A stretch of 24,994 nucleotides of DNA from a virus: IMG/VR virus record IMGVR_UViG_3300036768_000258, positions 1-24,994 of that record. One strand, 5' to 3'. A program made the translations under genes and the position numbers. Under the pieces are notes generated by a model. It worked only from the letters and a program-made list of their open reading frames with translations. It ran no database searches and had not been told where the DNA came from. Positions 517 through 5,228 of this stretch are shown piece after piece (the stretch's first letter is position 1; each line of letters starts with the position of its first letter).

Positions 517-617
517 GTGGACATGATGGAGGTTCTATGACGACGCGCAAAGACCGTGCTCCCCTGAAAGTCGAATTAGTGCCGATTGACAAGCTTCAGC
601 CGTATGCGCGCAATGCG
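508..617 (+). repeat. 110-bp perfect direct repeat, copy 1
   Basis: Identical base for base to 1992-2101, offset 1484 bp. The unit contains the last two codons and the stop of the upstream ORF, a GGAGG ribosome binding site (528-532), the ATG at 537 and the first 27 codons of the ParB-like gene. Identity stops abruptly at 617, where the two ParB genes become clearly different at DNA level. Confidence 0.95.
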
Positions 618-2000
618 CGCCTTCACCCCCAGGAACAGATCGATCGCCTGGCGGAGAGCATCAAGCACTTCGGGTTCACGGCCCCGATCCTGATCGATGA
701 GCACGGTGAGATCATTGCCGGCCACGGACGCTTGCTCGCCGCGCGGCAGCTTGGTCTTAGCAAGGTGCCGTGTGTGCGGCTCTCGCACCTCACGCCCGAG
801 CAGGTCCGTGCGTACAGGATCCTCGATAACCGGCTTGCTGATTTGTCTGGCGGCTGGGATCTTCCGACCCTACGAACAGAACTGGCTGAGCTGCGAGTCG
901 AGGCACCTGACCTTGCCGCGCTTGGCTACTCTGACCGCGAGCTCGCGAACGTGCTCGAGCTCCCTGAACATGTGATCGCTGGTCCAGCACCGCAAAGCAT
1001 GCCTTCGCCTGATGCAGGGGAGGTCTTTACCATCCCGACATTCTCCGTCCTCGACTCCACGACGGCGACCTGGCGCGCGCGCCGCGACCACTGGTGGCAG
1101 GCGCTCGACTTCAACCCGCTATCCGGGTTGCCGGAGAATGCGACGTATGGCCACAGCAGCATGCCACCTGAGGTCTACCGTGCAAAGAGTCAGTACAGCC
1201 TCCGTATGGGGCGCCGTGTGCGCTGGGACGAGTTCTTCGCTGCACATCCAGAGCAGAAGGCCATGGCTTGTACGTCCGGGTTTGACCCTGTTCTTTGCGA
1301 GTGCGCCTATCGCTGGTGGTGTCCACCTGGCGGCACCGTGCTCGATCCGTTCGCTGGAGGTCCCACGCGCGGCATTCTCGCCGCAGCTCTCGAGCGACGG
1401 TATGTTGGGGTGGACGTGCGACACGAGCAGATCGAAGCGAACCGGAGCGAATGGGAACGGCTCGCCCCCGACTGGCGTGCGACGCGACCGGTGCCCGAGT
1501 GGCGACACGGCGATAGCCGACACCTCGCGACGCTCTGCGCGGATGTGCAGGCCGACTGCATCTTCTCGTCCCCACCGTATCCTGGCGTGGAGCGCTACTC
1601 GGACGAGAAAGACGACCTCTCGACCATGGACTACGAGGCCTTCCGGGAAGGCTATCGCCTGTGCATTGCGCAGGCGTGTGCGCGGTTGCGTGAAGACCGC
1701 TTCGCTGTGTTTGTGGTCGGTGAAGGGCGTGACCGGCGCGGCAGGCTCACCACGTTTATCTCCGACACCATCCATGCATTCCAGGCGGCAGGGCTCGAGT
1801 ACTACCAAGACGCGGTTCTCGTAAATTCGATTGGAAGCCTCCCGATGCGAGCACCGCTGATCTTCCGCGCTTCGCGCCGCCTCGGGCGACGCCATCAATG
1901 GGTGCTGGTTTTTCTCAAGGGCGATCACAAGCGCGCCACGGCCACCTGTGAAGTGCTGCGCTCGGAGCAGGTCGAGTCCTCTGCGGATTCCGAATGCTGA
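537..2000 (+). CDS. ParB-like domain fused to DNA methyltransferase
   Basis: A 487-residue protein. Residues ~12-115 are a ParB/Srx-like domain with GEIIAGHGRLLAA (58-69), where GHGR occupies the place of the ParB GERR nucleotide-binding motif. Residues ~185-470 form a SAM-dependent methyltransferase: motif I DPFAG at 270-274 and motif IV SSPPY at 344-348. Motif I precedes IV, and SPPY favours N4-cytosine methylation, although N6-adenine enzymes cannot be excluded. ParB-methyltransferase fusions are common in phages and are thought to modify phage DNA against restriction. The start at 537 is chosen because GGAGG lies 4 nt upstream; the frame also opens at 468, but that would ignore this site. 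The stop lies inside copy 2 of the direct repeat. It likely acts with the two following genes. No restriction enzyme is seen, so it is probably an orphan methylase. Confidence 0.88.
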   Translation: MTTRKDRAPLKVELVPIDKLQPYARNARLHPQEQIDRLAESIKHFGFTAPILIDEHGEIIAGHGRLLAARQLGLSKVPCVRLSHLTPEQVRAYRILDNRLADLSGGWDLPTLRTELAELRVEAPDLAALGYSDRELANVLELPEHVIAGPAPQSMPSPDAGEVFTIPTFSVLDSTTATWRARRDHWWQALDFNPLSGLPENATYGHSSMPPEVYRAKSQYSLRMGRRVRWDEFFAAHPEQKAMACTSGFDPVLCECAYRWWCPPGGTVLDPFAGGPTRGILAAALERRYVGVDVRHEQIEANRSEWERLAPDWRATRPVPEWRHGDSRHLATLCADVQADCIFSSPPYPGVERYSDEKDDLSTMDYEAFREGYRLCIAQACARLREDRFAVFVVGEGRDRRGRLTTFISDTIHAFQAAGLEYYQDAVLVNSIGSLPMRAPLIFRASRRLGRRHQWVLVFLKGDHKRATATCEVLRSEQVESSADSEC

Positions 2001-2101
2001 GTGGACATGATGGAGGTTCTATGACGACGCGCAAAGACCGTGCTCCCCTGAAAGTCGAATTAGTGCCGATTGACAAGCTTCAGCCGTATGCGCGCAATGC
2101 G
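1992..2101 (+). repeat. 110-bp perfect direct repeat, copy 2
   Basis: Exact copy of 508-617. It holds the final codons and stop of the methyltransferase gene, the GGAGG site and the first 27 codons of the second ParB-like gene. Recombination between the copies would remove 1484 bp, that is the whole methyltransferase gene, and leave a single intact ParB gene with its ribosome binding site. Confidence 0.95.
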
Positions 2102-2593
2102 AAACTGCACGATCAGGCGCAGGTCTCGCAGATTGCCGAGAGCATCAAGCAATTCGGCTTCAATGTCCCGATCCTGATCGACGACCAAGGCGAAATCATT
2201 GCCGGCCATGGGCGATGGCTCGCTGCGAAGCATCTTGGCATGACAGAGGTTCCGTGCATCCGTCTCAGCCATCTCACGGCGACCCAACGGAAGGCCTATC
2301 GTCTGGCTGATAATCGCCTGACCGAACTGGGCGGCGGCTGGGACTGGAACACGCTGGCGCTCGAAATCGAGGAGTTGCAGCTTGACGAGATCGCGCTCGA
2401 TTCTTTAGGTTTCGACGATCACATGCTCGAAAAGATTCTCGGTCCACAACCGTCGCAGCTTGATACGCCCGCGCTGCAGTCGATCACAGAACAGTATCTC
2501 GTCCTCGTCAGTCTCAAAACCGAGCACGAGCAACAAGCGTTACTCCTGCGGCTGACACAAGAGGGCTACCAATGCCGCGCATTGATCTCGTAA
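2021..2593 (+). CDS. Stand-alone ParB-like protein
   Basis: A 190-residue protein whose first 27 residues are identical to the preceding ParB-methyltransferase, because both lie in the 110-bp repeat. The rest of the ParB-like domain is similar but diverged and keeps GEIIAGHGRWLAA at 58-69. It has no methyltransferase domain; instead residues ~155-187 form a short C-terminal module (YLVLVSLKTEHEQQA then EGYQCRAL) that I recognise only as a recurring tail on phage ParB-like proteins. The start at 2021 has GGAGG 4 nt upstream. It overlaps the next gene by 22 nt, which suggests translational coupling and joint action with the ATPase-GNAT protein. ParB-like domains bind DNA and in true ParB hydrolyse CTP; which of these happens here cannot be told. 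Confidence 0.82.
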   Translation: MTTRKDRAPLKVELVPIDKLQPYARNAKLHDQAQVSQIAESIKQFGFNVPILIDDQGEIIAGHGRWLAAKHLGMTEVPCIRLSHLTATQRKAYRLADNRLTELGGGWDWNTLALEIEELQLDEIALDSLGFDDHMLEKILGPQPSQLDTPALQSITEQYLVLVSLKTEHEQQALLLRLTQEGYQCRALIS

Positions 2594-3705
2594 AGGAATC
2601 GCGGATCATCAGATCGCCGCGCGTGTTGCAGATCGAGGGCATGTTCGACATGCAGGCGTCGGAATGCTGTCGTCAAGAATGGCACATGGACATCGAGCTG
2701 CCACAGGACTGGCAGATCGGCGTGATCGTCGGACCGAGTGGCGCCGGGAAAAGCAGTATCGCTCGACACTTGTTTCCCCGCGTCATCACGCCGAGTTCGT
2801 TTTCTTGGCCGTCGGATCGCAGCATTCTCGATGCGTTTGAGCCTGCCGAGTGCAGCATTCGAGAGATCGCGATGATGCTCTCGTCCGTGGGGTTGAGTTC
2901 TCCTCCCACTTGGCTCAAGCCCTATCACGTCCTGTCGACGGGTGAACAATTCCGCGTGATGCTGGCGCGTGCGCTCTCACTCACCGAACCGATCATCGTC
3001 GTGGATGAATTCACGAGCGTCGTGGATCGCGTCGTCGCCCAGATCGGCAGCGCCGCCGTGGCGAACACCGTGAGAGCGAGACGGAAACAGTTTGTGGCGG
3101 TGACGTGTCATTACGACGTGGTTGACTGGCTCGACCCCGACTGGGTGCTGGAGCCACACCTTGGCCGCGTGACGACGAGGTGTCTTCAAGGCAGACCGCG
3201 CGTGTCGATCGATGTCCATCGCGTCGAGCGAACCGCCTGGCGCCTGTTTGCACCGCATCACTATTTGAGCCATGATCTGCACCCCATGAGCGTCTGCTTC
3301 GTGGGGCTGATCGAGCGGCGTCCCGCCGTCTTCGGCGCGGTGATACACTATCCCCATCCGCACGTCTCGCATTTTAAGCGCGAACATCGGCTCGTCTGCC
3401 TGCCCGACTACCAAGGGATCGGCATTGGCGGGGCGTTCTCGCGGATGCTGGGCAGTCTGTACCGAGGCTTGGGGTACCGGTATCTGTCCATCACCACCCA
3501 TCCCGCGCTGATAGCCGCCCGCACGCGATCCGCCGCGTGGGTCCTGCGCGTCGCGCCAACCCTGAAGGCGCCCGCCTTTCTCGGGCCAGGGAAGAGCGGG
3601 CCCGCCACGCGCTTGCGTGCCACATTTGAGTATGTCGGACCGGCGATGGATCGCGCGCTCGCGGAACGGCTCGCGACCAGCCAGCCGCTGAAGGACCTGC
3701 GCTAG
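2572..3705 (+). CDS. ABC-type ATPase fused to Mom-like GNAT domain
   Basis: A 377-residue two-domain protein. Residues ~15-205 are an ABC-type ATPase: Walker A GPSGAGKSS (54-62), signature LSTGEQ (121-126), Walker B IIVVDE (141-146) and a switch histidine (H180). No membrane segment or permease gene is near, so it is not a transporter. Residues ~215-325 look like a GNAT fold: a HHYLSH motif (229-234) and the acyl-CoA loop QGIGIGG (281-287). The H-H-Y-L-S segment followed by a GNAT loop recalls phage Mu Mom, which hypermodifies adenine. With ParB-like and methyltransferase genes upstream, a role in DNA base modification is a reasonable inference, but not proven. An alternative is acylation of a protein. 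Only 1 nt separates it from the terminase gene. Confidence 0.78.
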   Translation: MPRIDLVKESRIIRSPRVLQIEGMFDMQASECCRQEWHMDIELPQDWQIGVIVGPSGAGKSSIARHLFPRVITPSSFSWPSDRSILDAFEPAECSIREIAMMLSSVGLSSPPTWLKPYHVLSTGEQFRVMLARALSLTEPIIVVDEFTSVVDRVVAQIGSAAVANTVRARRKQFVAVTCHYDVVDWLDPDWVLEPHLGRVTTRCLQGRPRVSIDVHRVERTAWRLFAPHHYLSHDLHPMSVCFVGLIERRPAVFGAVIHYPHPHVSHFKREHRLVCLPDYQGIGIGGAFSRMLGSLYRGLGYRYLSITTHPALIAARTRSAAWVLRVAPTLKAPAFLGPGKSGPATRLRATFEYVGPAMDRALAERLATSQPLKDLR

Positions 3706-3706
3706 C

Positions 3707-4969
3707 ATGCGGATTCGTCTGCCGCCATTTCGCCTGCACCCCGCCCAACGCCAGATCCTCGACGCGCGCGGGCGCTTCAAGGTCATCGCGGCCGGCCGCC
3801 GCTTTGGCAAAACCATCCTGGCGCTCGAATGGCTCCTGCTCGCGCCGGGCGGCGCGCTCGACGGCCATCCGGTCGCGTACTGCGCGCCGACGTACAAGCT
3901 CCTGATGGACGCCTGGCGCAACATGGAACGCACGCTTACGCCCGTCATCGCCTCGGTCAATCGCGCCGAGATGCACATGCAGCTCATCACGGGCGGTCGA
4001 GTGGACGGGTGGACCTTGGAGGATCGCGACGCGGGCCGTGGGCGGCGCTACGCGCGGCTCGTGATCGACGAAGCCGCCCATGCGCGCTATCTGCAGGAGT
4101 GCTGGGAGCAGGCGCTCTCGCCGACCTTGACCGACCTGCGCGGCTCCGCCTGGTTTATCTCGACGCCGCGCGGCATGAATTACTTCGCTGACCTGTATCA
4201 GCGCGGTCGACAGGGCCTGGCCGGCTGGTGGAGCACGCGCGCGCCAACGTCGGCGAATCCGAAGATCGCGCGCGCGGAACTGGAGCAAGCCCGTAAGCAA
4301 TTACCCGAGCTGGTCTATCGCCAGGAATACGAGGCCGAATTCGTGACCATGGGCGCGGGCCTCGTCAAGCCGGACATGATTCGCGAGGGCCCAGCACCGG
4401 CCGATCTGCCCGTGACGCTCGGCGTGGATCTCGCCATCTCGACGCGCGACGATGCCGACTGGACGGCCATTGCCGCCGTCTCGCACGACCATGAGCGCGG
4501 ACGCGTCTATCTCCGCGAAGTCGAGCGGTTCCGCGGGGCGTTCCACGACGTGCTGGGGCGCATCGTCGGGGCCGCCACGCGCTGGCGTCCACGGCTCATC
4601 GCCATCGAGCAGGTGCAATATCAGGCGGCGGTTGTGCAGGAATTGGCGCGGACCACGCGCTTGCCCGTGCGCGGCGTGACCGTCGATCGCGACAAGCTCA
4701 CGCGCGCCCTGCCGCTCATCACGCGCTATGAGCAGGGTCTCGTCTATCACGATCCCTCCGGCGTGCCCGGATGGTTCCGCGAAGAACTCTTGGCCTTTCC
4801 GCAGGGCGAGCACGACGACGGCGTGGACGCGGTCGTGCATGCGTGGCAGGCGGGCCAGACCGGCCTCCAGTATCGCATCAGTAGTCTCGCCGAGGTGCCG
4901 CCGGAGCCGACCGAGCCGACACAGCCTCCAGACGAGGAGGAGGCCGTCTATGCGCGATTCCGCCTCTGA
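3707..4969 (+). CDS. terL: Terminase large subunit
   Basis: A 420-residue DNA-packaging motor. The N-terminal ATPase has Walker A AAGRRFGKT (28-36), Walker B RLVIDEA (117-123) with catalytic E122, and a coupling motif STP (152-154). The C-terminal RNase H-like nuclease has acidic residues D241 (GVDLA), E301 (IAIEQ) and D371/D374 (HDDGVDA). The enzyme would dock on the portal, translocate DNA into proheads and cut concatemers. Length and motif order fit the family. No recognisable small terminase subunit lies upstream, where the modification genes are found instead; the small helix-turn-helix gene downstream overlaps its end by 20 nt. The packaging type (cos or pac) cannot be read from the motifs. 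Confidence 0.95.
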   Translation: MRIRLPPFRLHPAQRQILDARGRFKVIAAGRRFGKTILALEWLLLAPGGALDGHPVAYCAPTYKLLMDAWRNMERTLTPVIASVNRAEMHMQLITGGRVDGWTLEDRDAGRGRRYARLVIDEAAHARYLQECWEQALSPTLTDLRGSAWFISTPRGMNYFADLYQRGRQGLAGWWSTRAPTSANPKIARAELEQARKQLPELVYRQEYEAEFVTMGAGLVKPDMIREGPAPADLPVTLGVDLAISTRDDADWTAIAAVSHDHERGRVYLREVERFRGAFHDVLGRIVGAATRWRPRLIAIEQVQYQAAVVQELARTTRLPVRGVTVDRDKLTRALPLITRYEQGLVYHDPSGVPGWFREELLAFPQGEHDDGVDAVVHAWQAGQTGLQYRISSLAEVPPEPTEPTQPPDEEEAVYARFRL

Positions 4970-5129
4970 GCAGTATCTCTCCGTGAAGGAAGTCGCCGCG
5001 CTCCTGCGCGTCTCGCCCGCGACGATCCGCGCCTGGATTCGGCGCGGCTATCTTCCGGCGCTCCAACCCGCGCGCGGGGCCGCGCTCAGGATTCCCCGTT
5101 CGAGTGTGTCACGTCTGATACGACCCTAG
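4950..5129 (+). CDS. Small MerR/excisionase-type helix-turn-helix protein
   Basis: A 59-residue protein starting at ATG 4950, inside the last codons of the terminase gene. Residues ~9-40 (YLSVKEVAALLRVSPATIRA followed by WIRRGYLPA) match the helix-turn-helix used by MerR-type regulators and phage excisionases, and the following RIPRSSVSRLI fits the wing/second helix. It is probably a DNA-binding protein. Its place between terminase and portal is where a packaging DNA-recognition protein could sit, so it may stand in for the missing small terminase; equally it may be an excisionase-like regulator. A 99-nt gap follows, holding only weak inverted repeats (GCGCAT/ATGCGC near 5168-5190) and no clear promoter. 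Confidence 0.75.
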   Translation: MRDSASEQYLSVKEVAALLRVSPATIRAWIRRGYLPALQPARGAALRIPRSSVSRLIRP

Positions 5130-5228
5130 CGAAGACCACGTAAATCGGTTGCATTCGGTAGCAATCCGCGCGCATCGCGTCATGCGCATCTTGGCGCGTG
5201 TCTCGTCGCGTGCTACACGCGGCATGAG

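Follow-up and report, generated by a model that had tools for sequence, protein, structure and literature searches.

The stretch of viral DNA analysed here (24,994 nt, referred to as the window) carries a gene for a ParB-like protein followed by a gene that joins an ABC ATPase to a GNAT domain (ABC-GNAT), directly upstream of the terminase large subunit gene (TerL). As the initial annotation had described, the first two genes overlap; both reading frames are present and intact, the overlap measures 22 nt, and a single nucleotide separates the end of ABC-GNAT (3705) from the start of TerL (3707). The ParB reading frame was taken to start at the ATG at 2021, with the ATG at 1994 as a possible longer alternative, and it stops at 2593. 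TerL is followed by genes for the portal, the protease, the major head protein, the tail and the tape measure. A small open reading frame (4950-5130) overlaps the end of the terminase gene and looks by eye like a helix-turn-helix protein of the excisionase/MerR-like kind (SVKEVAALLRVSPATIRAWIRRGYLPA). The open reading frame at 3-278 gave no noteworthy family match in Pfam or PHROG. A perfect direct repeat of 110 nt (508-617 and 1992-2101) takes in, for each of the two ParB genes in the window, the ribosome-binding site and the opening codons; beyond it the identity between the two falls to about 50-83%. The repeat stems either from a recent duplication or gene-conversion event or from a join in the assembly.

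Table 1. Features of the ParB/ABC-GNAT locus and its flanking genes in the window.
Feature	Coordinates	Strand	Basis
ParB domain-DNA methyltransferase fusion	537..2000	+	Context only; N6_N4_Mtase E=1e-10, ParB_N (Pfam); PHROG 498 E=5e-110
Shine-Dalgarno-like GGAGG for ParB start 2021	2011..2015	+	Sequence
ParB-like protein, 190 aa	2021..2593	+	ParB_N/Srx-type domain and conserved C-terminal tail; Pfam, PHROG
22-nt overlap, ParB codons CRALIS-stop / ABC-GNAT start	2572..2593	+	
ABC ATPase-GNAT fusion protein, 377 aa	2572..3705	+	PHROG 11143
ABC ATPase domain, residues ~1-198	2572..3165	+	Invariant alignment columns
GNAT domain, residues ~204-377	3181..3702	+	Alignment, model, Foldseek to GNATs
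Terminase large subunit (TerL)	3707..4969	+	Pfam Terminase_6C E=2e-10; context, outside module

The ABC-GNAT protein is a full-length match (residues 8-325, E=9e-94) to PHROG 11143, a family that carries no function label and whose records are annotated mostly as transporter or hypothetical protein. Homologues were found in 57 viral contigs and 70 phage records, and one-per-species genomes gave 252 places, of which 80 were kept; in one planctomycete family, 42 of 95 searched genomes contain a homologue. The search of the two-domain fusion and its gene neighbours that the initial annotation had called for thus returned a widespread phage family with a near-constant ParB upstream. Two different ABC-GNAT genes, about 1 kb apart, lie in one phage locus in L025, L026, L028, L029, L031 and L034. 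Four Porphyromonas phage records (H7, H8, H23 and H24) give the label 'acr candidate' either to the homologue or to the neighbour that overlaps it.

The ParB-like protein of the window matched Pfam ParB_N (PF02195, E=1e-7, above the curated cut-off), the domain that places it in the ParB/Srx superfamily, and PHROG 620 (E=8e-52). At 90% protein identity the 138 loci of the family collapsed to 109, of which 101 had at least 400 nt of upstream sequence. A ParB-like gene on the same strand was present within 1.5 kb upstream of ABC-GNAT in 99 of the 101 non-redundant loci. The start codon of the ABC gene lies exactly 22 nt inside the ParB gene in 38 of 100 ParB-bearing loci (28 ATG, 9 GTG, 1 TTG). 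This overlap encodes the conserved ParB end, CRALIS followed by the stop, and the ABC-GNAT start codon straddles the Cys codon; the Glu-Gly codons before it (often GAGGG, as in the window) stand at Shine-Dalgarno distance. The overlap of 22 nt is retained in loci that split ABC and GNAT into two genes (for example L045, L046, L056 and the Oenococcus phage). The ParB C-terminal tail, roughly VxVxCxxExxQxxLLxRLxxEGxxC(R/K)ALIS, is conserved in about 100 loci, and since it is kept in loci where the genes do not overlap, it is a feature of the protein more than a by-product of dual coding. In one locus on a Gemmataceae contig (L121), ParB, ABC and GNAT form a single open frame. No second fusion of this kind was found in 95 genomes of the same family, where the relatives are adjacent separate genes with stops between them; the fusion therefore stands alone and may have come about by one isolated loss of a stop codon. 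The frequency of the upstream gene, the conserved overlap and the one natural fusion together establish that ParB is an integral partner of ABC-GNAT, and the pairing first noticed in the window is genuine. A recognisable ParB just upstream was absent in the carriers Aeromonas PX29 and Tenacibaculum pT24.

Other neighbours were less constant. When 81 loci were scanned for large genes up to 4 kb downstream, many had a terminase or portal there (Terminase_6N 15, Phage_portal 8, Phage_portal_3 6, GpA_nuclease 5, and others); a terminase neighbour is not universal. The setting is that of phage late and packaging genes. Leptospira LE4 and Pasteurella Pmp13 carry ParB, ABC-GNAT, terminase and portal in the order of the window, with 19-nt overlaps. 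The upstream methylase, which the initial annotation had counted in the set, has a homologue in just 2 of 109 loci and was dropped as a component of the module. L006 (1-3694) has in one row ParB, ABC-GNAT, another ParB and a homologue of the window's methylase. In Microbacterium phage Antuna (L183, 2469-3621) the gene of a related ParB-like protein shares 8 nt with that of a Mom-like acetyltransferase. We also considered a PADLOC defence system and set it aside; similarity was confined to the ABC part (to mad3) and the ParB part (to a methylase model).

The ABC domain (Pfam ABC_tran, E=1e-8) has the Walker A motif GPSGAGKS at residues 54-61, the signature LSTGEQ at 121-126, a Walker B with D145 and E146, a D-loop at S149-R153 and the H-loop residue H180, the elements by which ABC ATPases are recognised. 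G54, S56, G57, G59 and K60 of Walker A were invariant in 31 aligned full-length members, as were L121, S122, G124, D145, E146, S149, D152, R153 and H180 in the rest of the domain. Judged by these motifs, the ATPase is complete and active-looking. Its best sequence and fold matches are the nucleotide-binding domains (NBDs) of transporters, and many records annotate it as the ATPase of an ABC transporter. The distance from the Walker A Lys to the signature Ser is however 62 residues in the window protein and 55-67 across the family, compared with 129 and 106 in the two matched halves of OpuCA, as read off the alignment. In transporter NBDs the helical region between these two motifs is the part that contacts the permease, so this region is largely missing from the ABC-GNAT family. 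Furthermore, no permease partner was found nearby: the scanned neighbours included no permease family, and the sole open reading frame with several transmembrane-like segments was the tape-measure protein. The suggestion that this is not a transporter ATPase is borne out by these findings and by the constant ParB partner. A soluble, dimerising ABC protein that acts on DNA or on a partner is more likely.

The motifs on which the initial annotation relied are all there: besides Walker A, the signature and H180, the GNAT part has HHYLSH at residues 229-234 and QGIGIGG at 281-287, and across 31-38 homologues the residues of these motifs vary little or not at all. The key residues of the GNAT domain are W223, F226, H230-Y231-L232, R273, P278-D279, Q281-G282-x-G284, H310-P311 and W323; W223, F226, H230, Y231, R273, V275, P278 and G282 were invariant in the 31 full-length members. 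The acyl-CoA loop QGxGxG/A is kept by nearly all family members. A single-sequence GNAT match in Pfam fell below the cut-off (E=0.03). An AlphaFold2 model of the domain built with 32 sequences reached pLDDT 91.7 and pTM 0.86 (pLDDT 89.2 for the full-length protein), and a PDB fold search with it gave 176 matches at E<=0.001, GNATs throughout, with RimI included and TmcA (2zpa) at rank 13. NAT10 gave a weak profile match (E=0.06). With both the fold and the Q/RxxGxG/A loop, the domain is a member of the GNAT superfamily.

The initial annotation had gone further and likened this domain to Mom of phage Mu, and this is where the comparison failed. The structure of Mom (8bv8) was not among the best 50 of the 176 PDB matches, and in a viral structure library Mom of Salmonella phage FSL SP-031 appeared at rank 25 (E=3e-4, TM 0.55), after generic acetyltransferases. 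The Mom family PF25680 did not match the window GNAT domain, whereas Mu Mom itself matches at 2e-75. When the ABC-GNAT family was aligned with a 12-member Mom alignment by hhalign, the probability was 28% over only 56 columns around the HY motif. The Mom alignment has invariant HY, E-L-x-R, S-xx-D and Y-x-A-x-N and lacks QxxGxG; the ABC-GNAT family has HY(L), R-x-V and QGxGxG/A, and of the Mom signature HYS, ELxR, SxxD and YxAxN only HY and an Arg are recognisable in it. The prediction of a GNAT fold therefore held and that of a specifically Mom-like domain did not. We rejected membership in the Mom family on the combined evidence of Pfam, profile-profile, motif and fold comparisons, and Mom is at most a distant cousin. 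The intact QGxGxG loop argues for ordinary acyl-CoA chemistry.

The coupling of a GNAT to an ABC ATPase was identified by Iyer et al. 2013, according to section 19 of the jumbo phage review PMC7824862, which gives pT24 as the example and predicts that the pair modifies a DNA base with an acyl group in an uncharacterised way. The interpretation of ABC-GNAT as a DNA-acylating protein has thus been published as a prediction and is not new. The text of that review around the prediction makes no mention of a ParB partner. The window protein belongs to PHROG 11143 and to the predicted system by its full-length match across ABC and GNAT. It shares this domain pairing with its homologue in Tenacibaculum phage pT24 (36.5% identity over 85%); the pT24 match, unlike the window, spans two annotated genes. 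In the literature searched, no report of a modified DNA base was found for any ABC-GNAT carrier; the passages retrieved from the Leptospira LE3/LE4 phage paper contained no base analysis, and the wheat phyllosphere phage paper does not mention an acetyltransferase.

Several known systems resemble parts of this one. Mom of phage Mu (PF25680, PDB 8bv8), which modifies phage DNA and is made from late genes, shares with ABC-GNAT the GNAT superfamily and a His-Tyr after helix 1, but has no ATPase, no classical acyl-CoA loop and a different catalytic signature, and the profile link is weak. TmcA is an ATP-driven ATPase-GNAT enzyme that acetylates tRNA cytidine. Like ABC-GNAT, TmcA and NAT10 carry an ATPase and a GNAT in a single chain, and the GNAT folds match; they differ in having a helicase-type rather than an ABC module, an RNA substrate and no ParB. 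Because TmcA too couples a nucleotide-hydrolysing module to a base-acylating GNAT, we regard it as the best functional analogue, with Mom as a looser one; this is a working analogy that assigns no family. SSU5-type and related phage-plasmids (PHROG 930 plus PHROG 293) and those of Acinetobacter have a ParB-like gene and then a related ABC gene upstream of the terminase, without a GNAT; the next gene is thioredoxin-like, as in the Acinetobacter phage-plasmids, or another. Such loci include L173 (5070-8061), L174 (3999-6612) and the phage records H160-H175. The occurrence of ParB-ABC without GNAT implies a module in its own right, with some role besides acyl transfer, and it is possible that these loci are a sister system with another chemistry.

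The analysis shows how the genes are laid out and coupled, that the motifs of the ATPase and of the acyl-CoA loop are intact, that the GNAT fold is present and that ParB is the partner. The hypothesis that best accounts for ABC-GNAT and its ParB at present is a role in DNA base modification, and we put the chances at about even or slightly better that the two genes form a module in which ParB directs an ATP-dependent acylation of the bases of phage DNA, ahead of packaging. For the substrate (DNA), the donor (acyl-CoA), the role of ATP, the timing and the purpose we infer the following. The ParB-like protein would recognise or load onto phage DNA and recruit the ABC-GNAT protein. ATP binding would make the ABC domains dimerise around or on the DNA, and hydrolysis would reset or move the complex. 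The GNAT would use its QGxGxG loop to accept an acyl group from acyl-CoA and would pass it to an exocyclic base amine, either N6 of adenine or N4 of cytosine. Acylation would occur late in infection, ahead of packaging by the terminase, and would protect the genome from restriction. A more specific version, in which an ABC clamp delivers the GNAT, the ATP-driven and ParB-guided base acylation is chemically unlike that of Mom, and the system is widespread in tailed phages and prophages, is plausible but falls somewhat short of even odds; it would depend on acyl-CoA, and the product would perhaps be N4-acylcytosine or N6-acyladenine.

The ParB partner points to DNA modification through guilt by association, which falls short of proof: the DNA methylase of the window carries a fused ParB domain of a related kind, a related ParB gene overlaps the Mom-like gene of Antuna, and the ParB-superfamily proteins DpdB and DndB belong to the Dpd and Dnd DNA-modification systems (PMC12839542 and PMC10853773, respectively). 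The terminase or portal genes often present close downstream also speak for the module. Points against DNA acylation are the carriers with no recognisable upstream ParB, the GNAT-less ParB-ABC pairs of phage-plasmids, the less than universal terminase neighbour and a GNAT domain no closer to Mom than to ordinary GNATs. The substrates of generic GNATs are mostly proteins or small molecules, and the target of acylation may instead be a protein of the host or the phage, such as RNA polymerase or a nucleoid or packaging protein; ParB and ABC would then carry the GNAT to targets bound to DNA. The closest solved folds, such as RimI, are indeed protein or small-molecule GNATs, and there is a known case of host RNA polymerase being modified by a phage GNAT (PMC7824862). 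A ParB-like partner would be unexpected for such an enzyme, however, and related ParB domains accompany a DNA methylase and a Mom-like enzyme; we consider protein acylation unlikely, at roughly one chance in five.

A somewhat smaller chance attaches to an accessory role in segregation or packaging, in which a ParB-ABC clamp or loader would aid replication, partition or the terminase and the GNAT would merely regulate it. The GNAT-less pairs upstream of the terminase in phage-plasmids fit such a role, as does the GNAT being at times a separate gene, but in the fused family conservation of the GNAT residues is roughly on a par with that of the ABC motifs. It is improbable that the GNAT is a divergent Mom that performs the true Mom-type modification of adenine, carbamoylmethylation. 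The invariant His-Tyr after the first helix is common to both families and is where hhalign aligns them; the poor alignment and the missing Pfam match speak against it, as do the absence of SxxD and YxAxN and the presence of QGxGxG in the ABC-GNAT family. Aeromonas phage PX29 (T4-like; L181, L190), moreover, holds both a Mom homologue and an ABC-GNAT gene. Least probable is the transporter ATPase of many database records, suggested by the top matches of the ABC domain and rejected on anatomy.

If ParB-directed base acylation is correct, the ABC-GNAT family would add another chemical class to the base modifications of DNA, one that is common in phages and bacterial genomes. The near-constant ParB partner shows which two genes to co-express, and the hypothesis is directly testable; cultured carriers exist, among them Leptospira phage LE4, Rhodococcus/Gordonia phage Jace, Oenococcus vB_OeS_unk162 and Lactococcus P335, and mass spectrometry of their virion DNA could decide the matter. 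It would also point to a common role for the phage ParB-like proteins that are found beside several kinds of DNA-modifying enzyme.
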